Shown here: positions 8,810 to 30,251 of the stretch, one piece after another
Layout of the letters: each line of letters begins with the position of its first letter
Position numbering within the stretch: the first letter of the stretch is position 1
Virus record (IMG/VR): IMGVR_UViG_3300030430_004834
Span: 1-32,914 of that record
Source: a virus
Strand: one strand, 5' to 3'
DNA: 32,914 nt
Program-made: the position numbers and the translations under genes
Notes under the pieces: model-generated
Told to the model about the DNA's origin: nothing
The model's database searches: none
What the model saw: only the letters and a program-made list of their open reading frames with translations

Positions 8810-9178
8810 ATGAGCAAGATAGGCGCATACGTTCTCAGCCTTGAAGAGGCTGGAATGATTGAGTTTAAAGAAAGTGAGAACATCTATGACTGGATCGATA
8901 AAAAGGGGCGTGGATATGAATATACCCCGCCGAAACAAAAATCACCTACCCGATATTCCATTCGACCAACTTTTTTTTCGCGATGCTTACGACATCGAAG
9001 CAACCGAAGAGGAAATAGATCGAATGGCAGCAGCCGCAAGGCAACGCTACAGACGGTGGCAACAAAAACAAAACACTCAGCCAGGGGACAAAGAACACAA
9101 AGAGTTCTACGTCGGCAAGGTCAAGACCGAAGAGGGCTTAATCGTGCGCGTGTATTGTCACGTAGGGCCTATCGATGA
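8810..9178 (+). CDS. N-terminal part of a possibly frameshifted gene
   Basis: This frame has the promoter and the best ribosome site, and its first 33 or so codons look real (acidic and hydrophobic, for example LSLEEAGMIEFKESENIYDWI). After about residue 40 it turns into an Arg/Ser-rich stretch typical of an out-of-frame reading, while the +1 frame becomes plausible (see the CDS at 8916). Dropping one A from the AAAAAGGGG run at 8900-8908 joins the two frames into a single protein of about 141 aa. Either a one-base indel, a +1 frameshift or two overlapping genes explains this; I cannot tell which. Function unknown. Confidence 0.4.
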   Translation: MSKIGAYVLSLEEAGMIEFKESENIYDWIDKKGRGYEYTPPKQKSPTRYSIRPTFFSRCLRHRSNRRGNRSNGSSRKATLQTVATKTKHSARGQRTQRVLRRQGQDRRGLNRARVLSRRAYR

Positions 9179-9233
9179 AAGTCACCAACGATCACAATCT
9201 ACCCTCTCCCGTAGTGAGGGCGCTGAGCCGTAA
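8916..9233 (+). CDS. hypothetical protein (105 aa), or C-terminal part of the frameshifted gene
   Basis: The ATG at 8916 has only a GGGGCG-type ribosome site, so it may not be the true start. The frame has sensible composition: an acidic stretch EATEEEIDRMAAAARQRYRRW (an amphipathic helix, about residues 24-44), then a basic/polar linker and a beta-like EFYVGKVKTEEGLIVRVYCHVG segment. It overlaps the nuclease gene by 59 bases. It may be the continuation of the frame that starts at 8810. No family recognised. Confidence 0.55.
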   Translation: MNIPRRNKNHLPDIPFDQLFFRDAYDIEATEEEIDRMAAAARQRYRRWQQKQNTQPGDKEHKEFYVGKVKTEEGLIVRVYCHVGPIDESHQRSQSTLSRSEGAEP

Positions 9234-10032
9234 TGATTATGACTCAGGTAACACACACTTATCTGTAACACAGCTCATAGACTCGCCTAGAGTACAAGCG
9301 CTAAGGCGAAAACATTGGGATGAGATTACAGAGGATGTAAGCGATAAGCTTTGGTCTGTGCTTGGCACCGCCGTGCACCGTGTATTTGAGGAAAATGTAG
9401 AAGAGGATGTAATTAGTGAAGAACGTTTGTTTTTGGATGTTAATGATTGGACTGTGTCTGGAGCTATAGATCTCCAAGACAAAGAGGGGCCGGTGGATTA
9501 CAAGTGCACAAGCGTGTGGTCTGTAATCTTTGAGAAAAAAGAGTGGGCCTTGCAACTCAACTGCTATGCCTGGTTGATGAGACACGCAAAAGCGAGGGCT
9601 AGCACTAAGCTGAAGATCGTTGCTGTGATGCGCGATTGGAACCGTCGAGAAGCCCAACGCAACCCAGACTACCCACAGGCACCAATACAGATAGTGGATG
9701 TACCTAAGTGGACTGATGAAGAGCAAGACCAATACGTTGCAGAACGGGTCAAGCTCCATCAAGACGCTCAGATAGCAGAAGCTATGGGTGAACGGTTGCC
9801 ACTGTGCACAGATGAGGAGCGGTGGCGAAAGAAATCCAGCTACGCTGTTCGCAAACCAACCAACAAAAAAGCAACTAGGGTGTTTGATGAACTGTCTTTG
9901 GCTGAGAAATACGTAGAAGACAACTCAGAAATTAAGTACGTGATAGATGAGCGTGTCGGTGAATACACCCGCTGTAAACAAAACTGGTGCCGTGTAGCAG
10001 AGTTTTGTGATCAGTACGAGGAGACAGAATGA
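9175..10032 (+). CDS. PD-(D/E)XK nuclease, RecB/Cas4-like
   Basis: Motifs in order: GTAVH at 64-68, SGAIDL with D99, VDYK with D108 and K110 (the PD-(D/E)XK core), and QLNCYAWL at 127-134 (the QxxxY motif of RecB-family nucleases). Four cysteines, C211, C267, C272 and C278, could bind an iron-sulfur cluster or zinc, though here the first lies after rather than before the nuclease core. Such phage enzymes act as exonucleases that make single-stranded ends for recombination. The annealing protein encoded two genes downstream supports a two-component recombination pair. The stop overlaps the next ATG (ATGA at 10029-10032). Confidence 0.88.
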   Translation: MKVTNDHNLPSPVVRALSRNDYDSGNTHLSVTQLIDSPRVQALRRKHWDEITEDVSDKLWSVLGTAVHRVFEENVEEDVISEERLFLDVNDWTVSGAIDLQDKEGPVDYKCTSVWSVIFEKKEWALQLNCYAWLMRHAKARASTKLKIVAVMRDWNRREAQRNPDYPQAPIQIVDVPKWTDEEQDQYVAERVKLHQDAQIAEAMGERLPLCTDEERWRKKSSYAVRKPTNKKATRVFDELSLAEKYVEDNSEIKYVIDERVGEYTRCKQNWCRVAEFCDQYEETE

Positions 10033-12118: not shown

Positions 12119-12360
12119 CAGAAGACGAATTGCGCAAAGAAGTGAGCCAGCCTGACCACTACACAGGCACTGCTGAATCAGTGGATGTAATTCGACAACA
12201 GTTTGGAGACAAAGCGTTGCGGCATGCGGCTTTGGTTCAGGCTTTTCAATACATCTTTAGGTGCATGAAAAAGGGATCTTTGGAGAAGGACATACGCAAA
12301 GCTATCTGGTGGCTGCATGTTGCTGTAGGAGATGACCCAAGGAACAAAGAAGTCCAGTGA
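12115..12360 (+). CDS. DUF3310 family protein
   Basis: The 81-aa product carries the DUF3310 pattern: QPDHYTG (12-18, the Pro-x-His-Tyr motif), then a helical bundle with AFQYIFRCMKKGSLEKDIRKAIWWL, corresponding to the conserved KYxxR-KKG-DLxKAxWYL block. DUF3310 proteins are common in phages and are sometimes annotated as nucleotide-kinase-like or SaV-like; the biochemical role is not established. The start is a GTG that overlaps the previous TGA (GTGA), and its stop overlaps the next gene's GTG in the same way. Confidence 0.8.
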   Translation: MTEDELRKEVSQPDHYTGTAESVDVIRQQFGDKALRHAALVQAFQYIFRCMKKGSLEKDIRKAIWWLHVAVGDDPRNKEVQ

Positions 12361-12995
12361 GTGAGCCAATATCTGTTAAGTGGCAGCTAGGACTAGATCA
12401 ATGCTCATTGCCTAACGGCGGTGTTCGCTTCGTAAATTTCGGGCAGAACGCTAGCCATTTAAAGTTTGAGAATGATGGATCTGTGTGTGGGCAGTTTGTC
12501 ATCTCTGATACTTTTAGCCAATGTCTTGCGATTGATTGGCAAAATAAAATCACCAGCGCTTGCATCAACGCAGGCGTCGGTAAACTACAGACATCAAATG
12601 GTAACCTACAGATACTAAATATTGATGATCGACCAATACTAGAAAAGCTGATCTTTCCTGATCAATCCATTGCAAACCATGCACAAATAGAAGCCCGTGC
12701 ACGCAAATATCGACTGCAAGAAAAGCGTCGAAAAAAAGGCATCAAAAAGGTTAGTGATCATTATCAGCGTACTGGTGTTTACCTGCTTTACGATGATGAT
12801 TATGAGGTTGTGTATGTGGGGCAAAGTGTCAGGCCCTTGCAACGAATCAATCAGCACTTAAAGAGCAACAAAGAGTTTTCTTATTTCAAAATTATATGGT
12901 GCTTGGATTCTAAGAAGCTGCACTGGGAGAAGAAGCTGACGCAGTACTATGATCCGAAGTTCAATAAAACTAACAGACCCCAAAAATATGTGTAA
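12357..12995 (+). CDS. GIY-YIG endonuclease with unassigned N-terminal domain
   Basis: The C-terminal third is a GIY-YIG nuclease domain: GVY at 140-142 and YVG at 153-155 stand for the two name-giving motifs, R163 and H167 follow on the next helix, E191 (HWEKKL) is the likely metal-binding glutamate, and N203 closes the domain. Residues 1-105 form a beta-rich domain with no match I can name, joined by a Lys/Arg-rich helix (112-132) that may contact DNA. It could be a free-standing homing-type nuclease or a phage recombination/anti-competitor nuclease. It starts with GTG overlapping the previous stop. The neighbouring genes are intact, so there is no sign of intron homing. Confidence 0.78.
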   Translation: MSEPISVKWQLGLDQCSLPNGGVRFVNFGQNASHLKFENDGSVCGQFVISDTFSQCLAIDWQNKITSACINAGVGKLQTSNGNLQILNIDDRPILEKLIFPDQSIANHAQIEARARKYRLQEKRRKKGIKKVSDHYQRTGVYLLYDDDYEVVYVGQSVRPLQRINQHLKSNKEFSYFKIIWCLDSKKLHWEKKLTQYYDPKFNKTNRPQKYV

Positions 12996-13263
12996 GTATA
13001 TTTCTGACCGAAGTTTTCCATCACTTCTCCTATCAACGTGCCTGTCCGTTGTGGTCAAAAAAGGCAGGCTAATCTTTGCTGCTCTTCTGATCTTGTCACC
13101 AATCACAGTAAGCGCTCATTTCCATGAGTGGCGTTTGGTTGATGTCAAAGAAGCAGAGGATGGCAGCAAAACATGCACCTACGTCTGCGATAAGTCAGGG
13201 CAGATACATGTTTTTGTGGATGGCAACTGTCAGATCTTAGTGCGGCCCACCCTAGAGTCGTAG
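12988..13263 (+). CDS. small secreted hypothetical protein (91 aa)
   Basis: The ATG at 12988 overlaps the end of the GIY-YIG gene; a GTG further in (at about 13051) would give a tighter signal peptide and is an alternative start. A basic stretch (VVKKGR) precedes the hydrophobic run LIFAALLILSPITVSA, with a likely signal peptidase cut after VSA. The mature part (about 45 residues) has three cysteines (CTYVC and NC), so it may be disulfide-bonded in the periplasm. No lipobox. It is the last plus-strand gene, and its 3' end overlaps the end of the convergent giant gene by 34 bases. It may be a lysis or superinfection factor, but this is a guess. Confidence 0.5.
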   Translation: MCKYISDRSFPSLLLSTCLSVVVKKGRLIFAALLILSPITVSAHFHEWRLVDVKEAEDGSKTCTYVCDKSGQIHVFVDGNCQILVRPTLES

Positions 13264-16200
13264 GCTTTGTTGAACTTGTTGTAAATAGAATCAATGCGAT
13301 CAAATAGATCCTGCTCTAACTTACCATACTTGAGTGCGTTTTCTGGCGATAAAGCCGCTCTTTGCTTTGCAACCTTGATTCTTTGACGCAACTCTCGGAT
13401 CTGTTTCTTTGCAAGCTTTAGTCGAGATAACATGGCTAACTGATCCCCATGCTCACGCCGGTAATCAACACGCTCTTGGCCTCTCAGAATCTCTAGCTGG
13501 CGTGATCGCTGCTCTATTCGATTGCTCCGTTCAAAGAAGTCCGCTTGGCTTTCAGATGCATTGGTTTCGCCTTTGAGCCTGCGCAAGAAAGGCTTCTCGC
13601 TTGGCAACAGATCTTCATCTTTTGCGTACTTATCGAATGCTGTGGCACTTCTAATCGCAAAGGTTCCAGCGCCACCCAGTATGAACTCGTAGAAATGCTC
13701 CAGTATGTCTGGCGATATATCTATGTACCCTGGCACATTCTCACTACCCTCGCCAAACAGAGCGTTTAGAGTCTTTGCCGTGTCAATAAATGGTTGCCTC
13801 GTTGATCCAAAGGCTAACGATGATTCTGGGAAAGGTGCCTGCCCAGGTATTAAATCTGGTTCACGATAGATTGGCCCACCAAAGAAGTTCTTGTTCCTTG
13901 CAACTTCAACAAATGGCTGTGAGGCCGTAGGGGCTAATGATGATATACCACTAAATCCTATGGGTGAAAACGATCCCATGAATGCGCTGGTTACATTACC
14001 CGCCGCTTTAGTTGGTGATATGTGATCTTGCGTCATCTCAAAAATGTTTTGACCCAAGACATGGAACACGTTGTATCCGTATGGCAGTGGCACGGTGTAG
14101 TAATACTGCTTACCTTCGTATTCGTTACCGTCATCATCGACATAAATATTGGATGCGCCCTCTGTTCTGGCGATATTAGGCTCAGCCATGATGACCATGT
14201 TTCTTTCTTTGATGTAGTCAGGTATCTCTGAGTAGTAGGATCGTCCAGTCTCTGGGTTCTCTTCGCTTTCTTCCTCTGCCCGAAGCGCAGACAAAGCACC
14301 CATAGTGATTAGGCCACCGATAGCAGCCTGCTTTACCCTGCTGGCCTCTTTACTAAACGGATTACCTTTTGGCCCAAACAATCCACGGGCAAAGTTTGCT
14401 GTGCCTTGAACGCTGGCATTAAAGAACAAGTATATGGCATTAACGATTTCACCCTGCATGCCTCTTCTGTTGAAGTTGATCGTAAGATTCTTGGCGAGAC
14501 TAGCTGCTTGGGCAACGGCCCTATCTCTAGGAATCCCTGAATCAATCAGCTCATCTCTTGATGCTTTGAAGGTCGCAAATCGTACAGCATTCTCTACCGC
14601 TGAGTTTGTGTCCTCTACAAACTGCAACACTGCGTCATAGCGCTTTTTAAAACTACCAAAGAAAGTGCCTCTAGACATGTTGATCATGTCGTTGATTGTC
14701 TTTACTTGCTCTTCTGGAGGTCTTGTGTGAAACCAATCCGCCTTGGCGCCAGCGCTTGTAAACTCATTGAAGTCCGCCTGATCTTTTGGACTCATACCAG
14801 TAAAGAACTCTTTAGCTAGCAGCGCTGGATTGACAGTGTTTGTTTTAGAGTCGTAACGCCTCAACCCTTTGTAGAAAGCACCCATTGATGGGATTACATC
14901 TTTAATAACTTTGCTGATTAGCGCTTGGTCTTTGGCCTTTCCTTGGGACATGTTTTGTTCACCAAGGATATTGAATATGGCGGTTTGAAGATCTTTGGTA
15001 AAGTTTCCTACAACAAACTCAGGGTTGAGCGAGGTGTTAACCATAGACAAGTATCTGTTTACGATTCCAAACTTAGTAAACAGGTTGTCAACTGTCCCTA
15101 CGTCAAACGATGCAATCGCCTCGCGCAACCGCTTGTCCTTTAAGAACACGTAGTACTGTTGGCCGTTTTCTTTGACGCCGATAAATTCTTTGTTGAAAGC
15201 TTTGCCTAGATTGTCGGGCTTGAAAACAACTTGCCTAATAAAGTCTTTGGGGTTCTGCCCAGGTGGCACACTGCTGTACTTCTGGTTTTGTAGCGCAGGA
15301 TCTGACCCCACATAGGTTAGCTTTGACTCCAAGGCTCGCACGTACTCTGGGTCACCTGGCCCTATCACACGCCAGTAATCTGCGTCTGGGTTTTCGCGAA
15401 CCAAGTTAAGTAGCTTCTGCCCAAACTCTTTGTTTTTCAGAGATCGCGCAATAGATCGCTCTGCATTAAACATAGCGTGACCAAGCGGAGACTGTGCAGC
15501 AGAGGTTCTGCCCTTCGCTGTTAAGTACTCTTTGCCTTTGGTACTCATGCTGCTACCTATGATTGCAGCTTCAGCAGCGTCTTCGTCAGGATCTTTACCA
15601 GACAAAGGTGCGTAATACTTGTAGAGATTGTCTATGTAGTCGAACCCGTCCTGATCGATCAGGCCCCCACGCAACAACTCCAAGTTTGATTCTCTGTTGA
15701 TCTGATCAAAGTCGGCTGCGATGTCTAAAAGCTTTTTGGTTCTTTTGTTCCCGCCGCTCCAAGTCTGTGTGGCGTCATCCCAACTCAAACCATAACGATC
15801 CATCATGCGCTTCTTTACAAACGAGTCTGTTAAAGCTTCCCCTGTTTGTAACTTACCAGAGCCAGGGTTGGTCTCTGGATCTGTTTGAGGATTGCGCTGC
15901 TGTATTCTTTTGTTTCGTTCAATCGCATGCCTGAGTATCAGGAACTCATCAACCTCATCTGTAGAAAAGTTGTTGTCTGCAATCTTATTTGCCAGAGGCT
16001 CAAGTCTATTTTGCTTAAACTCTCGGAACTTTTGCCCTAGCTTACCTGGGATTGACTCTTCACCAATGTACGGGTCTAGCTCTGGGGGAATGTTCGACAA
16101 ACCCAAAGACCGCCTGTACTTGTTTACATCTGCAACAGCTTTCTTCAGCCCAATAAACTTGTCTTGGAGCTGATAGATAATCTTGTCACCTATGGAGTAG

Positions 16201-19200
16201 GTGCCTGATTGGATAGATAAAGGAGGCTCCCCCCTCGCTTCGCTTTCTTTGAGAGGCTTTCTTATCTCAGGAGTTTGATCTAAGGAGTAAAGCGGACTGT
16301 CTACGTCGTTTCTTTCTTTCAGACTATCTACATATAAATCAGCAGCTTCGTCTGTTTTTAGAACTAAGTCTTGGTCTCTTTGGTCGTTGACCTCTTGGCT
16401 TGGACTTCGTATTTCTTCAACAATCTCTGCATCGCCCTCTCGCCTGCGAGCTTCGCTAGTTCTTCCATCCCTATTGATGTACCTGTTGGTGATTTCCGAG
16501 ATTGTTTCACTGGTAGAAGCTCCTCTGTATCCTGCTTTCTTTGCAGCGTCTATCATGTAGAACCAGCGCATAGCTTGCAAGCTTGCTGGATCAGCTTGTA
16601 CCCCGCTTAGCTTGTCATACTCTTCTTTAAATATTTTAGAGAAGTCTTGGAACAGAGCATCCTCTTCAACATTTGCAGGCAACCCTGTGTTTCTCTCAAA
16701 CAGGTTGTTGAAATAGCTTCGTATGAATCGTGATTCCCATACATCAATGGTTGTGTATCTGGGATCACCAGCTAAGTTTAAAGTGTAGGCACCAATCTTT
16801 TTGCCAAATATAAACATACGGGGGATCTCTTGATCCTGCCCTGTGGCTTGCTTGACCAGCGATTTGATGGCGCCAATGTTGGATACATTACTCTTGTATC
16901 CCATCTGCCGATTGAAGTCTTGCAGCTCTTTTGCGCTGACGCCCTCTTTCAGAAAATCTATGGCGCTCTTAACGGGAGTTGGGCTATTAGAAAAGTTAGA
17001 GATCAGTTCATCTATAACCTTTAGTGACTTAGCCTTTGTCGCGCTTGTAGTTCCTGAGATAGTAAAAGGAGCGCTCTTGATAACTCTATTACCTTTAGCA
17101 CTAAGCCCCAGTTCAATGTCATCTAAGTTTCCTCTCTGTTTGTACAGATCAAATATCTTTAACGCATCGCCAACATTTGCAGGCAGTGATGTGGCTGGTG
17201 AAGTCAGTCCATTGGCGACTTGATAAAACAGAAGATCGTCATCAGTGATCTGCCCGTACCTGCTTTCTAAGGCGCTGCGAGTAGCAGAAAGATCCTCTGC
17301 ATAGTAGTCACGATACTTTGGGTTTTCTTTTATAAAGTCTTCTATGTCGCGTATCGCTCTCTTAGAGGCAGTACGCACCTTGTCTGACGATACAGTGCCG
17401 CCAACTTCGCTCATCAAAGAGGGCCAGAACTTACCAAAGAACTCATCTTCGACAGCGGTGTTATAGTCGTTGTACTTCTTGTTGGCTAACCTGACCGCGC
17501 TTTCTATCGGTGTAGTTGACGGGCGTCTTTGGAAGAGCGGCTCATCAGATGGGTCTTCAATGAAGTCTGGAGCTACATCTCGCTCTCTACCTATTCCTCT
17601 TTCGGGAACAGCCAACAAAGACTTCTCTAAAGACCTCAGCGTTCTTACCTTGCCTCGTTCTCTGGCGCCAACTTCGCCACTCTCCAGCCTGTCTAGAACA
17701 TCCTCAAAGCTTTGGAATCCTGTGCCGCGCAAGGCATTGTTGGTCTTTTCAAAAAAGTTGAACATCCTTTCAACCATTGCTCTCGGCTTGCCAGCGATCA
17801 TCGCCTTGTCTTTGCGGCCTGATCGTATTAGCTCTGCAACAGCCTCTTCCATCTTGCCTACGGGGCTAAGATTTTGATATCCAGGGTTATCTATTATTGA
17901 CTGATAGAATGTAACATTGGGCTTGTCTGGCAAGGTCTTCTTTCTTGCAAGGTTTTCTAGCAGGCGCCACTCTTTGTCTTCCCAAAGATCCAGCTCTCTT
18001 GTTGCGTGGAGTACTTCATGGTCTAAAGTATCCATGATCGAAGCCCTCAAAGACTCTGGGCTATTGTCTCTGGACTTTCTCTTGGCTCTATCTATCGCAG
18101 TAAATATTGTTCTGGCAGACGGTAAGAAATAACCTGTTGTGTCTGCCGATAATTCTCTTTCAAAATCACCTAGAACTACTTCGCCCTCTCTTGTTACAGG
18201 GCCAAACTTTAATACGTCTAGAACCCTGCCTTTAATGTCAGACAAACCAAGGCCAGTTAGCTCTTTGTCTACAGATTCTTGTAGGTCTTTCAGAAGTGCG
18301 TCTTCGTCCCTCTTTTGCGTTGATGTAAAGGGAACTTTCTCTATAGGGGCAGCCACAGGCCTCTGATCTTCAAGAAGCGGCGTCACCGCAACCGTATCGT
18401 CCTCTCGGATCGTGCCTGCTTTCTTTAAATCATCTCTGATCGCTTTGGCGATTAGACCTACCCTCTTCTCAGATCCTTGATCAGAAAAAAAGCTTTCTAT
18501 GTTTTGTGATGTGCCGTCACCGGATTCAATAACAAAAGCTTGCGCCTCATCATATTGTCTGCGCGTGTATGGCTTAGGCCTAAAGTCTGGGATGTTTGTT
18601 GGCGTTGGCAATCTAGGTAGCTGACGTAACTCTGACGCCAAAAACTCCCCTTGAGATGGGGTCATTTTGTTAACGTCTTTTTCGTTAACTATCTTGTCAA
18701 AGATGTACTCTACCTCTGGCGTTTCTAAGCCTGAAGTTATGTTCTTATCTCTAAGTATCTGGCCTATCTCTCTTTTTGTTTTGAGTTTAGCCCCAACCTG
18801 CCCAAACTCCCTAATAGGCGCATTGATATCAGATGTCTTAGCATCTAAAAGCACATCAAAGACTTTAGGAAAATCCTCTCCTAAAACTTCTCTAGCCTCT
18901 TGTAAGTCAAAGTTTGATACTTCTTTCAGCCCTTTCTTTCTACGCTCAAAGTTTATTTTCTGTGCAGCAGTCAGGCCCGTAAGATCTTTGTATATTTTTT
19001 TGCCACGATCTGTAAGTGGCGGCACCCCATACTGCATTTCATGCAGCCGATCTATACTGACTCCTTCTGCAAAAGGGGTTTTTGGAGTGTCTATTGTTCT
19101 AGCAGCCTGATTAAGAGATGAGGCTGTGATGGTGAATCTATCTGGACGATTTAATCTTTGACCTATCGCATACAAACTTTCTGATTGCTCTGGGCTGTAC

Positions 19201-20918
19201 GGCTCAGGGGATAAGTCCATCGCATCAATTATGGATTGATTAACGCGACGGTTAATTATTTCGTTGTTTAGATTAGAAACTAAATGCGCAGTTTCTTCGT
19301 ATATCGGAGACCCAGATCCATACACTTCGTCGGATATTGAGTGCTTAGCAAAAAACTCCACTCCGTCAGGGGTTGTTCTTTGGTCTATACTGAATGTGCC
19401 TGCGTCAGGGAATTGGCCCCCTTTGCTTGTAACGTTCCTAGCAAGGCGTCTTGCGTAATCTTGCGCTTTGCCGGTTAAAGAGGTTTCTCCGCGACCTTGT
19501 TGCGATTCAACCAAATCTTCATAGGTTCTTTGTCTTTGACGCTCTGCCTCACGGCCTGCCTCTATAGCGGCCATCTCCCCCGCAAGCCTTCTATCTCTAG
19601 CGTCCTTGCGAAGATTTGCTTCAGCCTCTTCTTGCGCAGCTATCTCTTGCTGTCGAAGTTTTTCTTTTGCTGCATCAGCTTGATCTAGGAAAAACTGCCT
19701 AGATTCTTCCTCTTTAACTCTTAGCTCGGCTTCTTTTTGTTGTTCTATCTGTCGGCTGATCCTAGCCCTTCTGTTGAATAGGCCCGTCGTTATCGCATCA
19801 ACAGTGGCACCAGCACCAAAGCCGACGGTCAGGTCATCCCATAAAGAGTCTGTAAAGCTTACGCTATCATCGTATGTATAGTTCTGGATGGCGTCTTGAG
19901 CAACAGAGGCAACGGCTTCTTGAATAGCTTCTTGTGAACCTGTTTTAACAGCGCTTCTTACTGCTTCCAAACTGCTTTTTGCCGCTTTCTCATACCGAAC
20001 TTCTCTGAGTAATCGGTTATATATTTCTGTTGCTAAGCGCTCATCACCAGCCTCATTCGCAGCATCAAGCCTTTTTTTCAACTCTTTTATGTTTCGCTCT
20101 GGAGTTTTAAGGCCACGGATTTTCTTGAGCTGTCCTAGTGGAACAAGAGACTCGGTGGTGCCGACAAGTCCACCAGCTAAAATAGCTATGTCGGCGTCTT
20201 CATCACTAACTTCTATTCCTCGACTTCTCGCCTCTTCAATCCTAGCGACTTGCTCTGAAGCGCCAAGACCTGCACCAGCCGCTCCAGTAGCGCCACCTGC
20301 GCCAACTTTACCCAACAAACCAGCCGCTTTTGCCCCAGAAGCAGCTCTGCCTAAGAGGCCGCCAACACCACCAAATGCAAATAATGATCCAATACTTCCT
20401 ACTGCTTCTCCAACCTTAACTATGTAAGCGTCTTTGTAAGCATCACCTACACCAAGGTTCTCATCGATAGATTGTTTACCTTGGTTGGCTAGATTGATAA
20501 GAAAGTTTTCATCACCACTGTCTATTAGATCTTCAAAGCCAAAAAAATCCGTACCTGCATCTGCAAGCTCAGCAAGTCCTGCGCCAGCCGATAAAACACC
20601 AGAGCCAAACCCACGCACTATAGCCTTGCCTGTTTCACCGATATATCCTGGCACAGTAGGCTCAAGGTCAGGATCTAATGCCAGCACCTCTGGCGTCATC
20701 TTCGCTGCGTTTTCTGCAATGCTTGCTTCTGCTAAGTTTTGTGTGCCGAAAGAGGGATCATCAACCGTTAAACCAAACTCTCTGTACACATCGGCTTCTG
20801 GCAGGTCTGAATAAAATCTTTTATATAAGCCACGGGCAAGCTCTTCATCGCTTAGGTCGTTGTATGCAGGATACTTTTCCCTAAAAACTTGCAGTCTAGT
20901 TTTGGCTTGGGCGTTCAT
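13230..20918 (-). CDS. giant polyvalent-type virion protein with zincin domain (2562 aa)
   Basis: Layout seen: an N-terminal segment (15-40) with DLSDEELARGLYKRFYSD, found in large phage internal proteins; a Gly/Ala-rich hydrophobic stretch (about 165-222) that could enter a membrane; a charged coiled coil (about 384-473); a degenerate IYEETAH (539-545) resembling a broken HExxH; a true zincin motif H967-E-V-L-H971 with a downstream MEEAVAELI (E1024, E1025, E1029); and a very long C-terminal part with LRHAIERN (H1664) and VGNFTKDL (N1972) that resembles the LPD38-type region of large polyvalent proteins. Such proteins are thought to be packaged and ejected with DNA and to act on host defences. 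Last gene of the late operon; its ATG directly follows the previous TAA. Family by pattern, function inferred. Confidence 0.85.
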   Translation of the reverse strand: MNAQAKTRLQVFREKYPAYNDLSDEELARGLYKRFYSDLPEADVYREFGLTVDDPSFGTQNLAEASIAENAAKMTPEVLALDPDLEPTVPGYIGETGKAIVRGFGSGVLSAGAGLAELADAGTDFFGFEDLIDSGDENFLINLANQGKQSIDENLGVGDAYKDAYIVKVGEAVGSIGSLFAFGGVGGLLGRAASGAKAAGLLGKVGAGGATGAAGAGLGASEQVARIEEARSRGIEVSDEDADIAILAGGLVGTTESLVPLGQLKKIRGLKTPERNIKELKKRLDAANEAGDERLATEIYNRLLREVRYEKAAKSSLEAVRSAVKTGSQEAIQEAVASVAQDAIQNYTYDDSVSFTDSLWDDLTVGFGAGATVDAITTGLFNRRARISRQIEQQKEAELRVKEEESRQFFLDQADAAKEKLRQQEIAAQEEAEANLRKDARDRRLAGEMAAIEAGREAERQRQRTYEDLVESQQGRGETSLTGKAQDYARRLARNVTSKGGQFPDAGTFSIDQRTTPDGVEFFAKHSISDEVYGSGSPIYEETAHLVSNLNNEIINRRVNQSIIDAMDLSPEPYSPEQSESLYAIGQRLNRPDRFTITASSLNQAARTIDTPKTPFAEGVSIDRLHEMQYGVPPLTDRGKKIYKDLTGLTAAQKINFERRKKGLKEVSNFDLQEAREVLGEDFPKVFDVLLDAKTSDINAPIREFGQVGAKLKTKREIGQILRDKNITSGLETPEVEYIFDKIVNEKDVNKMTPSQGEFLASELRQLPRLPTPTNIPDFRPKPYTRRQYDEAQAFVIESGDGTSQNIESFFSDQGSEKRVGLIAKAIRDDLKKAGTIREDDTVAVTPLLEDQRPVAAPIEKVPFTSTQKRDEDALLKDLQESVDKELTGLGLSDIKGRVLDVLKFGPVTREGEVVLGDFERELSADTTGYFLPSARTIFTAIDRAKRKSRDNSPESLRASIMDTLDHEVLHATRELDLWEDKEWRLLENLARKKTLPDKPNVTFYQSIIDNPGYQNLSPVGKMEEAVAELIRSGRKDKAMIAGKPRAMVERMFNFFEKTNNALRGTGFQSFEDVLDRLESGEVGARERGKVRTLRSLEKSLLAVPERGIGRERDVAPDFIEDPSDEPLFQRRPSTTPIESAVRLANKKYNDYNTAVEDEFFGKFWPSLMSEVGGTVSSDKVRTASKRAIRDIEDFIKENPKYRDYYAEDLSATRSALESRYGQITDDDLLFYQVANGLTSPATSLPANVGDALKIFDLYKQRGNLDDIELGLSAKGNRVIKSAPFTISGTTSATKAKSLKVIDELISNFSNSPTPVKSAIDFLKEGVSAKELQDFNRQMGYKSNVSNIGAIKSLVKQATGQDQEIPRMFIFGKKIGAYTLNLAGDPRYTTIDVWESRFIRSYFNNLFERNTGLPANVEEDALFQDFSKIFKEEYDKLSGVQADPASLQAMRWFYMIDAAKKAGYRGASTSETISEITNRYINRDGRTSEARRREGDAEIVEEIRSPSQEVNDQRDQDLVLKTDEAADLYVDSLKERNDVDSPLYSLDQTPEIRKPLKESEARGEPPLSIQSGTYSIGDKIIYQLQDKFIGLKKAVADVNKYRRSLGLSNIPPELDPYIGEESIPGKLGQKFREFKQNRLEPLANKIADNNFSTDEVDEFLILRHAIERNKRIQQRNPQTDPETNPGSGKLQTGEALTDSFVKKRMMDRYGLSWDDATQTWSGGNKRTKKLLDIAADFDQINRESNLELLRGGLIDQDGFDYIDNLYKYYAPLSGKDPDEDAAEAAIIGSSMSTKGKEYLTAKGRTSAAQSPLGHAMFNAERSIARSLKNKEFGQKLLNLVRENPDADYWRVIGPGDPEYVRALESKLTYVGSDPALQNQKYSSVPPGQNPKDFIRQVVFKPDNLGKAFNKEFIGVKENGQQYYVFLKDKRLREAIASFDVGTVDNLFTKFGIVNRYLSMVNTSLNPEFVVGNFTKDLQTAIFNILGEQNMSQGKAKDQALISKVIKDVIPSMGAFYKGLRRYDSKTNTVNPALLAKEFFTGMSPKDQADFNEFTSAGAKADWFHTRPPEEQVKTINDMINMSRGTFFGSFKKRYDAVLQFVEDTNSAVENAVRFATFKASRDELIDSGIPRDRAVAQAASLAKNLTINFNRRGMQGEIVNAIYLFFNASVQGTANFARGLFGPKGNPFSKEASRVKQAAIGGLITMGALSALRAEEESEENPETGRSYYSEIPDYIKERNMVIMAEPNIARTEGASNIYVDDDGNEYEGKQYYYTVPLPYGYNVFHVLGQNIFEMTQDHISPTKAAGNVTSAFMGSFSPIGFSGISSLAPTASQPFVEVARNKNFFGGPIYREPDLIPGQAPFPESSLAFGSTRQPFIDTAKTLNALFGEGSENVPGYIDISPDILEHFYEFILGGAGTFAIRSATAFDKYAKDEDLLPSEKPFLRRLKGETNASESQADFFERSNRIEQRSRQLEILRGQERVDYRREHGDQLAMLSRLKLAKKQIRELRQRIKVAKQRAALSPENALKYGKLEQDLFDRIDSIYNKFNKAYDSRVGRTKI

Positions 20919-22616
20919 TTACGTTTTCAGCGCATCCCTTACACCGCCAAGAGGATCTTTAGGATCATTGCCCAAAAGCTCATCTGTGGCTCGACCAACT
21001 GATCCTACCAAGCTGTCAACTAGACTATTTGCGTACTTCTTAATTTCTTCTGGTTCTGCGCCAGCACCTTCACCCTTCAGCCATTCTTCCATAGCATCAT
21101 TAAAGGTATCTTCTATAAAGTTCAGTTGCGATCTAACAGTCGCTTGCTCTTCTTCGCTTCTTAAATCTTGGAATCGTAGTATCTGGGCTTCTTTAAATAG
21201 TCGGTCTATAGCAAACTTTCTTTGCTCTGTTGTATAAGCTTGTCCTGCTAATGCAGCAGACTCTAAGCCTTTAGCCAAATTTTCTGCTGCTGTTTGACTC
21301 AACCCTGCGGCTTGATATTCCAGAGTTTTATTAGCCACATACTGCTTTGTTTGAAGCTCTCTGTTTTGCTCTTCGTTCTTAATCGCTTGCTGCTTATCAA
21401 GAATGCCAAGCTGCCTCGCTGTTTGCATTTGCGACATTTCTGTTTCTTGCTGCAATCTTTCTTCAGCAGTAATGTCTTTTCTGGCTTCTTTTCTTATATC
21501 CGCTGCTGTTTGCCCAGCCTTGCTCAACCCAGAGGCTAGATTACCCGCTGCTATACCTGCTCCAAGTTGAATCAAAGCCTGAGAAGCAGCCTCTCTTTTA
21601 GCATCATCGCGAATCTGTCCAGCTCTCGCTTCTGATTTCGCAATCAATCTAGAGTAATCAGGAGCTAGGCTTGCAAAATCAGACGTTATGTCTGTTCTGA
21701 ATTGTTCATAGTCGTAGGGTTTTAAGCTTTCAGCATACTTCAAAGCGTCTCTGCGCACCGTTTCACTGTCTGAATAATCGGCTTGTGTGGTTGATGGCAA
21801 GCCTTTGCTGCGCAGCTCGCTTTGAATATCAGAATACGTTCTTGCATCTTCAGTTAATGCGTTATTTGGTTCACCATCTGTAGTCACAAGGGCAGATGGA
21901 TCAACGCTGGGGCTAGACACAGCTTTTATTACATCACCAGTTTGACCGCTGCGTTGTACAAATGGGTACAGCTCTGGTTGATCCTCAACAACATTTCTAA
22001 ATCCACCCATATTCTTATCGTACATCTCTTGAGGTGACGGTGTTGGCTGAGGAGAAACCATACCCTCGTTGTAGACAGTCGATAAAGCTTCATAGGCAGG
22101 ATTACCTGGCCTCAACAAATCAGTCATTGGTATGTTTTGAACAGCACTTCCGACATCCATAACATTAGGCGGTCTTACTGTTGATTGACTCTGATCAGTT
22201 ATTTGGAACGGTGCGCTGGTTTCACCTGCCGTGTCTACATAAAGGCCCTGCAATCGATTGATCACGTCTTCCATTGTCACTCCCTGGTCGCGCATTCTTT
22301 GGAGATACGCAATCCTGGGATCATCAGAGTACGGAGTCTTGCCCCCTCCGTTCATTGCTATTGTCGGGGCAACACCCATAGCAGATTGCATCGCTGGTTG
22401 AGGTGGTGCCATTGCAGCAATGCCTTCATTGACAATCTGATCCTTGATGGTGCCTTGTGGTTGTCGCTCTTGGAACCTCTTGCGCATGTCGCTTCTGCGT
22501 TTGATCTCAGAAATAACAAGGAACTGAGGCACCCTGCCTGTGGGTTGAGTGGCTTCCTTTCTTAAAGCCATGTCAGGCAACCCTTTGATCATGTCTTCAA
22601 CTTCTAATATGTTCAT
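20919..22616 (-). CDS. virion-associated coiled-coil protein (565 aa), probably internal
   Basis: The N-terminus carries KGLPDMALRKEA and VPQFLVISEIKRRSDMRKRFQE, a pattern I associate with internal virion proteins of environmental podovirus-like phages. A Pro/Gly-rich stretch follows, including GIAAMAPPQP at 65-74. The middle is polar and disordered. The C-terminal half (about 310-530) is mostly helical, Ala/Gln/Glu-rich and likely coiled coil, with an Ala/Gly segment near 350-365 (LIQLGAGIAAGNLASGL). It lies between the 788-aa repeat protein and the giant protein, with 1-base or 0-base junctions, so all three are probably made together and packaged or ejected together. No enzyme motif is seen. 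Confidence 0.75.
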   Translation of the reverse strand: MNILEVEDMIKGLPDMALRKEATQPTGRVPQFLVISEIKRRSDMRKRFQERQPQGTIKDQIVNEGIAAMAPPQPAMQSAMGVAPTIAMNGGGKTPYSDDPRIAYLQRMRDQGVTMEDVINRLQGLYVDTAGETSAPFQITDQSQSTVRPPNVMDVGSAVQNIPMTDLLRPGNPAYEALSTVYNEGMVSPQPTPSPQEMYDKNMGGFRNVVEDQPELYPFVQRSGQTGDVIKAVSSPSVDPSALVTTDGEPNNALTEDARTYSDIQSELRSKGLPSTTQADYSDSETVRRDALKYAESLKPYDYEQFRTDITSDFASLAPDYSRLIAKSEARAGQIRDDAKREAASQALIQLGAGIAAGNLASGLSKAGQTAADIRKEARKDITAEERLQQETEMSQMQTARQLGILDKQQAIKNEEQNRELQTKQYVANKTLEYQAAGLSQTAAENLAKGLESAALAGQAYTTEQRKFAIDRLFKEAQILRFQDLRSEEEQATVRSQLNFIEDTFNDAMEEWLKGEGAGAEPEEIKKYANSLVDSLVGSVGRATDELLGNDPKDPLGGVRDALKT

Positions 22617-24982
22617 TAGCTTACTCCAGCAAGCGCGTTATACAGGCCAACACCGCCAATACCTGCACCAAGAAGCTGCTGAGCCTGACTTGGGCCACCA
22701 AACGTTGTGGTTTGAGAGCCTGGAGTAACAGGCAATCCTTGCAATAGCTGGCTAAAGAATGCCAACTGTTCTCTTGGGAAAGCTTGTTGCCTCAAGAAAT
22801 CTTGATATCCAATGTCTAACCCGCGCTGCGTTAGATTCCTTTGTATCTCGCCAGCGGCTTGCAAGTTTCTTAATCTTTCAAAAGCAAGTCTTTGCTCGTC
22901 GCCACCAAGGGCGCCCAGTATCCTTGCGGCATCAAGTCGCTGAGCTTGAGTTGCTCTGTCAGCATCTAATCCAGCAAGACCAAGTCTAGCCCTGGTCTCC
23001 TCTAGTGCAGCCTGTTGCTGCCTTGCTGCCATACGAGCTTGGTTTTCAGCCTGATTAACACGCTCTTGTAGTTCTTGAGCGCTTAGCCCAAGCCTTGCTG
23101 CTTCTTGTCTTGCAGCTTCACTCGCTTGGAATGCAGCACGATCTTCCTGTTGCTGGGCGATTCTAAGTTGCTCGTTTTGAGCAAAGGCTTGTTGTCTGAA
23201 ACTCTCTTGTGCTTGCCGAGATGCGTCCTCTTGCTGTTGTGCCGTAAGCCCAAGTTCTGCTGCTCTCTGCCTTGCTTGCTCTCCGATCTGAAATGTTTGT
23301 TGTTCTAACTGCTGCTGCTGTATTCGCCCTTCTTGAGTGATACTAAACGCAGCTTGTGAGAACTGCTCTTGCGCTTGCCTTGCAGCTTCTTCTTGTTGCT
23401 GTGCAGTGAGGCCAAGTTGTGCAGCTTGTTGTCGAGCCTGTTCTCCAGCTTGGAAAGCTTGCTGAGCAAACTGTTCTTGTTGAGCCGCAACATCTGCCGT
23501 TTGAGCAAAAGCTGATTGTCTAAATTGTTCTTGCGCTTGCTTAGCTGCTTCTTGCTGTTGCTGAGCAGTCAGGCCCAACTCGGCAGCTCTTTGTTTAGCC
23601 TGCTCGCCTGCTTGGAACGCTTGAACATCAAGTTCTTGTTGTGCTCTGCGACCAGCCTCTGTCTGCTCAAATGCTCTTTGCGAGAACTGTTCTTGAGCCT
23701 GACGCGCTGCGTCTTCTTGCTGTTGAGCAGTTAACCCTAATTGAGCAGCTTGCTGCCTTGCAGATTCTCCCGCTTGGAAAGAATCTACAGCCATTTTTTG
23801 TTGTGCTTGACGCGCTTGCTCTGTCGCTTGGAAAGCACTCTGCCGTAACTGTTCTGCTTCCCTTGCGGCAGCATCACGCGCCTGACCAGCGGTTAAGCCA
23901 AATTGTGCTTCTTGTAATCTAGCAGCCCGATCTGCTTCAAAGGCCTGCATAGCTTGTTCAAATCCTGCTTGACCGCCGCGAGCCTGTATGTCCGCTAATT
24001 GCTGACCCAAATTGCGCTCTCGTTCAGCCTGAAGGATCGCCTCTCGGTATCCACCAAGTCCGCCAGCCTGCGCTGCTTGCTGAGATATATCAGCAGCCTG
24101 TATATCAGACTGACGCTGTGCCTCTCGCTTTTCTATGTCCGTCACCAACTGCTGGTACGGATTCATGTAGGATTCAAGAATCGCAGGATCTGCTATCGTT
24201 CCTGCTTGAAAGCCAGCACCAAGATCTATATCTCCTGTGTACTGAGACTGCAAATCTCTGGCCGTGTAGTCTTGCCCTAACTCTCTAGCAACATAACCAG
24301 GATCAAAGTCGCCTGCCTGATAATCGACGCCTAGCTCTCTTGCTTGAAAACCCTGATCAACTTTTCCAGCTTGATAACTTGGATCAAACACACCGGCTTG
24401 ATACTGACTTGTAAGCGGCGCTACATTGAAGCCAGACTGCCTCGCTTGCGCCACATAGCCTGGGTCAAATTGCCCAGCCTGATAAGTTGGAGATAAGGCT
24501 TGAGCTTGGAATCCTTGATCTAAAGTACCGGCCTGATAGGACGGATCAAATGTTGTGGCTTGAAATCCAGAGCCTCTTTGACCTGCCTGATATCCTTGCC
24601 CAAGACCGCCAGCGGTATATCCAGACCCTATATCACCAGCAGTGTATCCAGAGAACTGCATTGGTGGTGTAAAGCCAGCAGCTATATCAGCTCCAGCACC
24701 AACGGGCTGATATCCAACTTGTGCGGCTATATCAGAGGCAAAACCTATTTGTTCAGGCGCACCCCTAGCGGCGATGTCCGCCATGCCCTCCATACCAAGC
24801 TGCTCAAACTCAGTAAAGTCTGCCAGTCTTTGCCCAGGAAAGGCTTCGTAAGGCCTTGTAGATTCATAAACTGTACGGCCTAAAAGCTCTTCATAAAAAG
24901 GCTGAGCGTACTCTGGTAAATTTGTCTGTGTGACAACGCTTTCTTGAACGCCGCCTCCGCCTCCGCCGCCTTTCTTACTCAT
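22616..24982 (-). CDS. tandem-repeat virion protein (788 aa)
   Basis: The start follows AGGAG within the end of the GNAT-like gene. After a GGGGGGG stretch (5-11) and an NLPEYAQPFYEELLGR segment, residues 111-254 hold sixteen consecutive 9-residue repeats, consensus xxY-Q-A-x-x-(L/F)-(D/G). A linker with YMNPYQQLVTDIEKREAQRQ leads to residues 348-671: six consecutive 54-residue helical repeats, each with FQAGE-type and LGLTAQQQ landmarks at fixed spacing. The last 120 residues are Ala/Leu-rich and end in a Gly-rich tail. The helical array would be about 490 angstroms if fully extended. Role: a fibre-like or DNA-ejection-channel component by its position beside internal proteins; this is inference. 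Confidence 0.8.
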   Translation of the reverse strand: MSKKGGGGGGGVQESVVTQTNLPEYAQPFYEELLGRTVYESTRPYEAFPGQRLADFTEFEQLGMEGMADIAARGAPEQIGFASDIAAQVGYQPVGAGADIAAGFTPPMQFSGYTAGDIGSGYTAGGLGQGYQAGQRGSGFQATTFDPSYQAGTLDQGFQAQALSPTYQAGQFDPGYVAQARQSGFNVAPLTSQYQAGVFDPSYQAGKVDQGFQARELGVDYQAGDFDPGYVARELGQDYTARDLQSQYTGDIDLGAGFQAGTIADPAILESYMNPYQQLVTDIEKREAQRQSDIQAADISQQAAQAGGLGGYREAILQAERERNLGQQLADIQARGGQAGFEQAMQAFEADRAARLQEAQFGLTAGQARDAAAREAEQLRQSAFQATEQARQAQQKMAVDSFQAGESARQQAAQLGLTAQQQEDAARQAQEQFSQRAFEQTEAGRRAQQELDVQAFQAGEQAKQRAAELGLTAQQQQEAAKQAQEQFRQSAFAQTADVAAQQEQFAQQAFQAGEQARQQAAQLGLTAQQQEEAARQAQEQFSQAAFSITQEGRIQQQQLEQQTFQIGEQARQRAAELGLTAQQQEDASRQAQESFRQQAFAQNEQLRIAQQQEDRAAFQASEAARQEAARLGLSAQELQERVNQAENQARMAARQQQAALEETRARLGLAGLDADRATQAQRLDAARILGALGGDEQRLAFERLRNLQAAGEIQRNLTQRGLDIGYQDFLRQQAFPREQLAFFSQLLQGLPVTPGSQTTTFGGPSQAQQLLGAGIGGVGLYNALAGVS
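22970..23941 (-). repeat. six tandem 162-bp coding repeats (54 residues each)
   Basis: Landmark LGL(T/S)A or FGLTA occurs at residues 361, 415, 469, 523, 577 and 631 of the 788-aa protein, and the Phe of (A/S/T)FQ(A/I)GE at 348, 402, 456, 510, 564 and 618: always exactly 54 apart. The outer copies are more diverged than the inner four, as expected for expansion by duplication. Confidence 0.9.
24221..24652 (-). repeat. sixteen tandem 27-bp coding repeats (9 residues each)
   Basis: Residues 111-254 of the 788-aa protein divide without gaps into sixteen nonapeptides with an aromatic residue (Y or F) at position 3, usually Ala at 5, and Leu/Phe then Asp/Gly at 8-9. Examples are SGYTAGGLG, PSYQAGTLD and QGFQARELG. 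A Pro or Gln often opens the repeat. Regular aromatic spacing suggests a beta-strand repeat, perhaps intertwined in a trimer. Confidence 0.88.
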
Positions 24983-25490
24983 CTTCTAAACTCCTCTCGT
25001 ACACAACGAAAGATCTTGTAAAATCGTCTTGCTCTAACCATTTCCAGAAACCCATTCTTGCGGTGGCCTCTATCCCGCTACACTGATTGTCTCTGCCCCA
25101 GTCTTTAAGACGCTCAAGCATTGACCAAACCCACTCGTTAAATTTGTCTCCGCCCAAAAACTGCACGGCTAACATTTTTTTCTGTGGATACTGAACAATT
25201 TCTGTAGTGCCTACCCCGTTGATGTTGTTGTCTTCATCAAAAGCCAACCATAGTTGCTGCTTTCCGTTTTGAATCGACGCATACAAGAACTCTAAATTCC
25301 AGCGCCCATAGGATCTGTATACAGCTCTCGCCAACTGCTCTCTTACATCAGGCCAAATACTATTTAAAAATGTAGGCGGAACCAGCGTTATGGTGTGAGT
25401 GCACTCTTTAGCATCTATCTTTCTGCGCACTTTATGCTCGCGTGAGATGTCTTTTATCTTGCTTGCGTCAAAGTCTAATAGTGCGCTCAT
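24975..25490 (-). CDS. GNAT-like acetyltransferase-fold virion-cluster protein
   Basis: The 171-aa protein has the look of a GNAT fold: the strand block QLWLAFDEDNNINGVGTTEIVQYP, then MLAVQFLGG, then a helix with a WGRDNQCSGIEATARMGFWKWLEQ segment and a final strand FVVYERS. The canonical acetyl-CoA loop (Q/R-x-x-G-x-G/A) is not clear, so catalysis is uncertain. Proteins of this kind recur in the head/tail gene clusters of podovirus-like phages, where their role is unknown. The start is an ATG overlapping the previous stop (ATGA at 25487-25490). Confidence 0.65.
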   Translation of the reverse strand: MSALLDFDASKIKDISREHKVRRKIDAKECTHTITLVPPTFLNSIWPDVREQLARAVYRSYGRWNLEFLYASIQNGKQQLWLAFDEDNNINGVGTTEIVQYPQKKMLAVQFLGGDKFNEWVWSMLERLKDWGRDNQCSGIEATARMGFWKWLEQDDFTRSFVVYERSLEDE

Positions 25491-27874
25491 GCAGGCATTA
25501 CCTCACTGCGGACGTTGTTTAGCGGTGCCGGTTGCTGGGTTGTCCCAGTGCGCTGCATGCGAACCCTATTCATCATGTCTTCTAGCTCCTTGGCGCCTGC
25601 ATCAGAGTTACCATCGCCTAGCCCAGAAACAACATCGCCTGGCACGATAAACTCACCAGGAGACACAGCAACTCTTTGTGAGTCGCCAATCATTCCTTTA
25701 ATTTCATCATCCATCCCGCCACTAGTCCCAGGTATCAGACCTTCTTTGACTGATCCTGGCACCACATCTTCTAGCACCCTGTTGCGGAGCATCTGGAACG
25801 CCTCTGTGCCAAACTCGTCAATAAACCTTTTTATGACAACATCAGCTTCTTTTTCTGGCAGTCTGCCTAAGAGAGCCATAGTCGTTCTTTCTATTAAAGA
25901 TCTTTCTTTAGCTTCTGTTTGCGCCACGGCCCCGCCCTCGGCTTTTCTTTCGATCATCATGTCTGATTCAAAAGCTTCTACTTTAGACGGCGGTAAATCG
26001 CGGCTAATTAAATCGTTTATCTCTTTAGGTATGGGCATGCCAGATCTGACATAAGGCTCAGCGAGTGTGTCAAACAATCGCACCCTTTCGTTGTATTCAG
26101 CCATTTGCTCTTTGGTAAAGCCACCCTCATCTTCTCTCAAGGGCCTATTACGATATATACCCCTGAACCCATCGCCTTCTATGCGCTGCTCGTCGTATAT
26201 GCCATCTCCAAGATCAACCGACCTAATTGGACTTCTTACATTAGGAACTTGTTTGCCCTCTTGCATTATTGCCTCTGGCATCATATCTGCGTAGTTCAAG
26301 ATGTCCCTGGATCGCAAAGCAAGATCAGGGACTATTGGTTGATTAACCGCCCGTGTGTCTCTCGTTGCGGTGACTATGTTTCCCATAACATCGGGTGATA
26401 CGCTTTCGATCTGATTCATCATCAGGGGGTCTATACCTCGACCTCTGCCAAGGGCAATGCTACCGACTAATCCCTGCAAAGCAGCTCCAGCTTCAGGAGA
26501 CAAAGCTGCAATTCCTGAAGAGGCAACGTCTGTATCTGTGGTCGTATCTGCATCTTCTGTCGCTGGATCTCTAAAGTACATGATCTCAGGATCAAATCCT
26601 GGTCTGTAGCCTCGTAGCTCATCTGGAGATATAACCTCTGGGCCTCTCAGTGATCTTTGCACAGAAGCCGCCATGAATTTTTTTACCGGATCATTTATTG
26701 GATCAAACAAAGGGCCTCCCTCTGTTCCTTCATCCCTATCTCTTTCGCGAGTAGTTGTAGTGCTTGTACGGCCCCCTCTAAACATATCTTCCGTGCCTAA
26801 GTTTTTAGAGTCCTCGTACTTCTCTACGAAGTAATTTGGATCGACAGAGGTTATGCCACCAGTGACAAATCCGTATGGAGAGGTTTGTTTGAATCGATCA
26901 TATCCAGTTCCCTCAACGGCACCAAACCGGCTGCTACTTAACAAGTTTTTAGCTCTGCGTTCCTCCTCTTTACGCTTTTCGGAAGCGGCCCCGTACAATC
27001 GATCCATCTCCTCTTGTCTCTCCATCTCCGCTAGCTGACCTTCGCCAACAGCAATTGGAATCATGGACTGAGCGCTTGTGAGTGATTTTAAAAAAGCACC
27101 AGGCTCTCGGAATGGGGCTGTTGCTACATCAAAACCAGATTGCTCTGCTCTCAAATCTGCAACTCTCTTGGTAAGACCAGCGACTCTCTGATCAGCCGCC
27201 AACTTTGCAGCATTGGCTGCATCAAGCTGTGAAAGAGGAGCGCTGGCCGCTTGTTGTAATGGGCTTAGAGCTGGGTTAGAAACAGCGCCCGTTATAGGAT
27301 CAGTAACCGCCACAGGAGAAAACGCCTGATTGACGGCTTGTCCTGTAACTGGATCTAAAGCACCCTGCACCGCTTGATCTATTGGTGCCGCCGCTCCAAC
27401 TTGAGCTGTAGCAACATCCAACCCTGCTTGGGCTGCATCTTCTCCTGCCTTAGATAACAACTCTTGAGTTGCACCTATCTCTGGATTTAGAGCATCACTT
27501 GCCGCACCTAAAGCTTGACCAACACCGTAACCTGTCAACCCTGATACTAGGCCCTTTTTGAGATCGCCTGTTATCGCAGCAGTTGTTAATCCTGAACCGA
27601 TAGCCCCCGCTATCGCACCGCCTAAAGTTTTACCGAGTAAAGCTTTCCCAGCCAAGCTACCAAGCATTGGCGCTAGAAAAGGTAAAAACGCTTCTGGCTG
27701 ACCTGTTACAGGGTTGGTTGTTAAGTTGCCAGTTGGCGACAATGCAGCAATCCCAGCAACTTCAACAGGGTTCATGTGAACCATCATGCTGTCACCAAAT
27801 CGCCCGTATTGCGCCATTTGATCAGCCATAGGCTGTAATGGTGCCTGCTGCATTTGTCCTTTCACATAATTCAT
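25487..27874 (-). CDS. large virion protein with hydrophobic N-terminal region (795 aa)
   Basis: An N-terminal Gly/Ala hydrophobic region (about 64-125, with PFLAPMLGSLAGKALLG and GGAIAGAIGSGLTTAA) could insert in a membrane during DNA ejection. Short motifs recur: GIAALSP at 41-47 and 454-460, and [ND]P(V/I)TG at 54, 174 and 192. A helical AADQRVAGLTKRVADLRAEQ segment and a long polar middle follow. The C-terminus has RVAVSPGEFIVPGDVVSGLGDGNSDAGAKELEDMMNRVR, a closing motif that I associate with virion proteins of uncultured marine phages. No enzyme motif. It begins one base after the overlap with the 109-aa gene (TAATG). Internal/tail protein is the best guess. Confidence 0.75.
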   Translation of the reverse strand: MNYVKGQMQQAPLQPMADQMAQYGRFGDSMMVHMNPVEVAGIAALSPTGNLTTNPVTGQPEAFLPFLAPMLGSLAGKALLGKTLGGAIAGAIGSGLTTAAITGDLKKGLVSGLTGYGVGQALGAASDALNPEIGATQELLSKAGEDAAQAGLDVATAQVGAAAPIDQAVQGALDPVTGQAVNQAFSPVAVTDPITGAVSNPALSPLQQAASAPLSQLDAANAAKLAADQRVAGLTKRVADLRAEQSGFDVATAPFREPGAFLKSLTSAQSMIPIAVGEGQLAEMERQEEMDRLYGAASEKRKEEERRAKNLLSSSRFGAVEGTGYDRFKQTSPYGFVTGGITSVDPNYFVEKYEDSKNLGTEDMFRGGRTSTTTTRERDRDEGTEGGPLFDPINDPVKKFMAASVQRSLRGPEVISPDELRGYRPGFDPEIMYFRDPATEDADTTTDTDVASSGIAALSPEAGAALQGLVGSIALGRGRGIDPLMMNQIESVSPDVMGNIVTATRDTRAVNQPIVPDLALRSRDILNYADMMPEAIMQEGKQVPNVRSPIRSVDLGDGIYDEQRIEGDGFRGIYRNRPLREDEGGFTKEQMAEYNERVRLFDTLAEPYVRSGMPIPKEINDLISRDLPPSKVEAFESDMMIERKAEGGAVAQTEAKERSLIERTTMALLGRLPEKEADVVIKRFIDEFGTEAFQMLRNRVLEDVVPGSVKEGLIPGTSGGMDDEIKGMIGDSQRVAVSPGEFIVPGDVVSGLGDGNSDAGAKELEDMMNRVRMQRTGTTQQPAPLNNVRSEVMPA

Positions 27875-30250: not shown

Positions 30251-30251
30251 A

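Follow-up and report, generated by a model that had tools for sequence, protein, structure and literature searches.

Polyvalent proteins (Iyer et al. 2017, PMC5512222) have been proposed as a widespread means of delivering several activities at infection, and few of them have been examined experimentally. The DarB-like protein gp69 of phage JC1 was detected with 51 unique peptides in CsCl-purified virions by mass spectrometry and carries an LPD38 domain at its own C-terminus (PMC9144972). In P1 DarB, the first 30 residues suffice to target a reporter to the capsid (PMC9024508).

The window analysed here, i.e., the whole stretch of 32,914 bases, is an entire IMG/VR record that is classed as linear and is likely a fragment. 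Its largest gene encodes a protein of this kind:

13230 to 20918, minus strand: giant polyvalent-type protein, 2562 aa (ORF call, full-length homologues)

The ORF starts with ATG, runs over 2562 codons and takes up 23.4% of the window, which confirms the preliminary description of a single gene filling about a quarter of it. Such a length, combined with homologues that are 51-54% identical across nearly the whole protein (L009, L012, L013, L014 and L017), means that the ORF is not due to chance. Its ATG comes immediately after the TAA stop that ends the preceding gene (taaATG), and it is the final gene of a minus-strand run extending from 32823 to 13230, the structural operon at whose end it had been placed from the start. 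It converges with the plus-strand early genes, overlapping the ORF at 12949..13263 by 34 bp. Terminase, portal and major capsid protein were not seen among the genes examined, the record being linear and probably incomplete. The giant is a further member of the known LPD38 polyvalent family, with a modular layout that is clearer than it appeared on first reading. The polyvalent-type reading is upheld as far as LPD38, the zincin and the structural operon carry it. The N-terminal tag, the fixed frame with its variable slot and the conserved domain at aa 1129-1499 had been missed.

The minus-strand run that includes the giant also encodes a holin, a lysozyme, a phrog_3287 head/stabilisation protein and a match to a 'DNA ejection protein' family; the giant is thus encoded within the virion/ejection module. 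Its neighbours are the following:

28394 to 30298, minus strand: 634-aa head/stabilisation protein, phrog_3287 (PHROG E 5e-69)
25487 to 27874, minus strand: 795-aa ejection-cassette protein (kept gene order)
24975 to 25490, minus strand: 171-aa protein in the GNAT position of the cassette (HTVC023P gp80 homologue, E 7e-18)
22616 to 24982, minus strand: 788-aa repeat-rich protein, PHROG 'DNA ejection protein' (E 2e-5)
20919 to 22616, minus strand: 565-aa protein adjoining the giant, a conserved partner (kept gene order)

The order 634-(109)-795-171-788-565-giant is preserved in relatives and partly preserved in the isolates Pelagibacter phage HTVC023P, Roseobacter phage CRP-902 and phage DSL-LC04, which also hold homologues of the 788-aa protein. 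The latter shows many YQAG-type repeats followed by long Q/A-rich repeats resembling a coiled coil. The last cassette position is occupied by proteins of 868 aa in HTVC023P, 676 aa in CRP-902 and 1068 aa in DSL-LC04, likened to the giant by position alone; the DSL-LC04 protein is annotated 'DNA transfer protein'. Upstream of the cassette, a 586-aa protein (30252-32012, minus strand) has long poly-proline runs and no family match.

The C-terminal part of the giant links it to virion proteins:

13233 to 16196, minus strand: C-terminal carrier module, aa 1575-2562 (conservation, JC1 homology)
13587 to 14234, minus strand: LPD38 domain (PF18857), aa 2229-2444 (Pfam)

LPD38 is matched with 125 bits (E 4e-36), above the curated cut-off of 27 bits. 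The preliminary description spoke of a huge C-terminal region of LPD38 type; the domain is real, but it covers only aa 2229-2444, and the rest of the module is conserved without a Pfam domain. In a Pfam search of the giant at E-values up to 10, LPD38 alone was found, with methyltransferase and helicase domains absent, and NCBIfam gave no match. The module of about 990 aa is some 30% identical to giants of cultured Escherichia, Vibrio and Ruegeria podoviruses, and Burkholderia phages are also among the records matched. Its profile matches JC1 gp69 at E 1e-45. Because gp69 is present in purified virions, packaging of the giant is likely, as had been suggested earlier, with the C-terminal module as the only part shared with gp69. 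Virion proteomics was found neither for this phage nor for a near relative. JC1 gp61-gp64 and gp68 were rejected as homologues of the upstream genes, since phmmer found none and the PHROGs differ; hence JC1 shares the C-terminus of the giant only. The JC1 virion module includes an annotated PAPS reductase; on the plus strand of the window, the protein at 941-1759 has an SFGGGVDSSA motif of PP-loop type and resembles a PAPS-reductase-type ATP pyrophosphatase, which Pfam did not confirm. The model of the C-terminal module is largely helical and poor (pLDDT 69), and neither a fold search with this low-confidence model nor a profile sequence search matched a solved structure. Rather than an array of effectors, the region resembles a carrier module that is conserved and largely helical; besides the zincin, the giant has one further enzyme-like domain only, the DUF7178-like one.

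At the other end of the protein, three segments were distinguished:

20766 to 20894, minus strand: N-terminal tag, aa 9-51 (FREKYPAYNDLSDEELARGLYKRFYSDL...), candidate capsid-targeting signal (recurrence at giant N-termini)
19662 to 20690, minus strand: N-terminal region 'nt', aa 77-419, Gly/Ala-rich, weakly hydrophobic at about aa 172-190 and 244-262
19494 to 19778, minus strand: coiled-coil-like charged stretch, aa 381-475 (composition only)

The tag of about 45 aa occurs in 12 distinct copies among 2234 ORFs, every one at the N-terminus of a giant. It is also N-terminal in large proteins of Ruegeria 45A6, Vibrio 41E34.2 and Pelagibacter HTVC106P. Among the giants with a complete 5' end, 13 of 116 carry it, and the remaining ones carry other heads. 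The tag is portable and, by analogy with P1 DarB, is a candidate capsid-targeting signal. The Gly/Ala richness described earlier was found again (30-36 G+A per 100 residues in aa 101-300), but the label 'membrane-active' is unsupported because the best 19-residue hydropathy, 1.53, is borderline. The proposed coiled coil fits aa 381-475 by composition, with no Pro, three Gly and an abundance of E, R, Q and A.

The middle of the chain holds a predicted zincin metallopeptidase domain:

17583 to 18317, minus strand: zincin-like metallopeptidase domain, aa 868-1112 (conservation, model, fold search)
18006 to 18020, minus strand: HEVLH, aa 967-971, in predicted helix 954-975
17832 to 17849, minus strand: EEAVAE, aa 1024-1029, putative third zinc ligand, in predicted helix 1019-1036
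17589 to 17612, minus strand: AVPERGIG, aa 1103-1110, conserved peptide at the zincin exit (20/20 occurrences here)

The motif H967-E-V-L-H971 lies exactly where it was first reported, and the zincin call gains support from conservation and modelling. HExxH is kept in 76 of 76 relatives, and each of them has a downstream EE, 74 by pattern and two (L076 and L077) by inspection, 48-66 residues past it. In the AlphaFold2 model of aa 868-1499, which is confident (mean pLDDT 87.6), both HEVLH and EEAVAE are helical; H967, E968 and H971 lie on one helix and E1024/E1025 on the next. In a Foldseek search against the PDB, the listed entry of highest probability was selecase 4qhf, a minimal HExxH metallopeptidase, a weak match (probability 0.54, TM 0.44 to the target) that was accompanied by two related entries, all without a significant E-value. 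The MPTase-PolyVal profile of Pfam (PF18818) had no match in the giant, and the zincin profile found nothing credible among the sequences of solved structures. The AVPERGIG pattern occurs 20 times in 319,223 aa of giants, each time at the zincin exit, where predicted order ends; since the giants are mutually related, this count does not translate into a probability. The peptide may be a processing site, a hinge or the mere end of the domain.

Elsewhere in the window, an ArdC-like protein (2223-3179, plus strand) matches ArdcN (Pfam, E 6e-5) and the MPTase-PolyVal zincin (E 6e-39), so the phage encodes a second polyvalent-type zincin in its plus-strand gene set. The same strand encodes a protein with a GIY-YIG nuclease domain near its C-terminus (12357-12995, E 6e-6) and a PD-(D/E)XK nuclease-like protein (9175-10032, E 2e-4, slightly under the curated cut-off).

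Viral contigs were scanned for the segments of the giant, and 130 non-redundant ORFs were found to contain one or more of them. The recurrent order in these relatives is a variable head, the 'nt' region, the zincin, a slot and the C-terminal module. In the 64 relatives with both zincin and C-terminus, the slot holds kin of the domain of the window in 15, DUF7178 in 25 (two of them weak) and other contents in 20, and is nearly empty in four. DUF7178 and its DUF7178-like kin thus fill 40 of the 64 slots. One of the 20 others, L139, has a marginal Pfam match to DUF7178, and in the nearly empty cases (L005, L093, L137 and L140) 63-124 aa separate the zincin from the C-terminal module. Some slots show weak Pfam matches to ADP-ribosyltransferase (ART-PolyVal), methyltransferase, ASCH and Phage_L5_gp82, most of them below the curated cut-offs. 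Besides the differing slots, domain exchange is seen as two alternative C-termini on a common body. Over aa ~88-1520, L001 and L002 resemble the giant, mostly at 39-42% identity (29% in one part of L002); their C-termini belong to another clade in which LPD38 is still present. The exchange falls in a variable linker:

16197 to 16421, minus strand: variable linker, aa 1500-1574, exchange point of the C-terminal module between relatives (relative comparison)

Domain order, conservation, the variable contents of the slot and the homology to a virion protein are thus seen directly. To judge from the sequences, a fixed frame (head, Gly/Ala region, zincin and LPD38 C-terminus) holds a slot that is filled by differing enzyme-like parts.

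In this phage, the slot is filled as follows:

16422 to 17534, minus strand: slot domain, divergent DUF7178-like, aa 1129-1499 (conservation, profiles, model)
16728 to 16805, minus strand: motif GKKIGAYTLNLAGDPRYTTIDVWESR, aa 1372-1397, with invariant K1374, D1392, W1394, E1395 and R1397

Identity within the closest set is 62-71%, the highest conservation in the giant, and AlphaFold2 assigns most of the domain a pLDDT above 90. The pattern [IV]PRxFIFxxKxGxYxxNxxGxxxxxTxDxWExR is kept in 38 of 38 relatives. DUF7178 (PF23802, phrog_3842) matches 17 of 25 members, weakly but consistently (best E 0.004), whereas each other Pfam family matches at most three. The copy in the window reaches 15 bits (E 0.02), below the curated cut-off of 27 bits, and hhalign aligned it with DUF7178 at E 0.002 over just 20 columns (probability 13). 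In the same slot of sibling giants, five of ten scanned reach 40-93 bits for DUF7178 (E 5e-10 to 3e-26). The domain is therefore named DUF7178-like rather than DUF7178: matches are weak in its members and clear in the siblings, and the profile match spans 20 columns. The copy in the window is much longer than DUF7178. In a BFVD fold search, its strongest matches were other phage polyvalent proteins. A direct search of 50,697 phage records gave no match, a scan of the genome collection no relative, and the slot profile nothing credible among the sequences of solved structures. DUF7178 had no match in 369 bacterial genomes, a result that is uninformative as the controls were equally silent. No paper on DUF7178 was found in the literature searched, and we know of no report of a DUF7178-like domain in a polyvalent-protein context.

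An identity as HhH-GPD DNA glycosylase was considered and rejected as an established assignment. K1374 and D1392, invariant in 38 of 38, have the 18-residue spacing of the catalytic Lys and Asp in E. coli EndoIII (aligned by eye only), and SPQT/SPAT of the slot was likened, also by eye, to LSAQATD of EndoIII. Pfam gave no EndoIII, MutY or AlkA family match, and the hhalign scores against EndoIII/MutY/AlkA-type sequences lay inside the range of block-shuffled decoys. No HhH-GPD glycosylase was among the top 50 of the PDB fold search; in BFVD, a viral Endonuclease III (R4T712) ranked 37th (probability 0.51, TM 0.40 to the target, E 0.65). The resemblance is only suggestive. We regard as unlikely the wider idea that a standard injection frame, consisting of a capsid tag, a zincin unloader and an LPD38 carrier, has a loading slot whose commonest load, the DUF7178-like domain, is a DNA-glycosylase-type enzyme delivered with the phage DNA.

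It seems fairly likely that the giant is a polyvalent virion protein of LPD38 type, that it occupies the last ejection-protein position in a marine phage resembling podoviruses, and that it works as outlined below. Alternatively, it could be mainly a structural component of DNA transfer, with a zincin that only matures the virion and a structural or DNA-binding slot without host targets. Ordinary ejection-type proteins of 676-1068 aa hold its position in CRP-902, HTVC023P and DSL-LC04, a Gly/Ala-rich segment and a C-terminal module made of helices would suit such a role, and some relatives have only 63-124 aa in the slot. However, the slots of relatives hold unrelated enzyme-like domains (ADP-ribosyltransferase-like, methyltransferase-like and ASCH-like, with weak scores), and the K, D, E and R that the slot domain here keeps invariant in 38 of 38 suggest an active site rather than a scaffold, so that we consider this account rather unlikely. 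That the giant is made late and acts unpackaged in the producing cell only, e.g., as an assembly or maturation protease, would agree with a protease-like domain encoded last in the late operon, but it is very improbable, since peptides of the C-terminal homologue were readily found in purified JC1 virions and the tag is confined to the N-termini of giants.

For the polyvalent virion protein, we infer a course of packaging, ejection, cleavage and effector action. The tag would target the giant to the capsid, as in P1 DarB; the particle would retain it through its Gly/Ala region and helical C-terminal module, which would also take it out along with the DNA. JC1 gp69 is the basis for packaging and the polyvalent-protein concept that for ejection, in which the giant probably passes into the host together with the viral DNA. 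Once inside, the zincin may cut the chain, possibly at the AVPERGIG exit, and free the slot domain, here a DUF7178-like one, which could then act early on a host or nucleic-acid target. The family offers a simple testable case, with a short tag that may be sufficient for packaging, a conserved protease-like domain, a peptide that may be its cut site, and slots that can be compared between otherwise similar phages, and it puts DUF7178 into a context where study is possible.

Compared to the polyvalent proteins of Iyer et al. (2017, PMC5512222), the giant shares a very large size, a multi-domain build, a setting among virion genes, the combination of zincin and LPD38, and domains that vary among relatives. 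It differs in having two enzyme-like domains only, the domains assigned in its chain by sequence and model being the zincin, the DUF7178-like one and LPD38, and its zincin matches no polyvalent MPTase profile of Pfam. JC1 gp69, from a Bcep22-like phage (PMC9144972), has the C-terminal LPD38 module in common with it, and in both phages the protein is encoded downstream of virion proteins, as the last large gene of their module. In contrast, gp69 alone has transglycosylase-like, methyltransferase/helicase-type and LPD3 domains, and at 4515 aa it is nearly twice as long. The giant of Ruegeria phage 45A6 (ANH49087.1, 3912 aa) has a homologous tag, zincin and C-terminal module but no slot domain, so that the C-terminal module follows almost directly after the zincin. 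P1 DarB (PMC9024508), likened here by description, is also large, resides in the virion and is believed to pass into the cell; it has an N-terminal capsid-targeting sequence, for which the giant has a candidate. It belongs to another phage type and has other domains. The general kind of protein is already known; what is seen here is a single slot that is filled by differing enzyme-like parts across viruses, most often by a DUF7178-like one.
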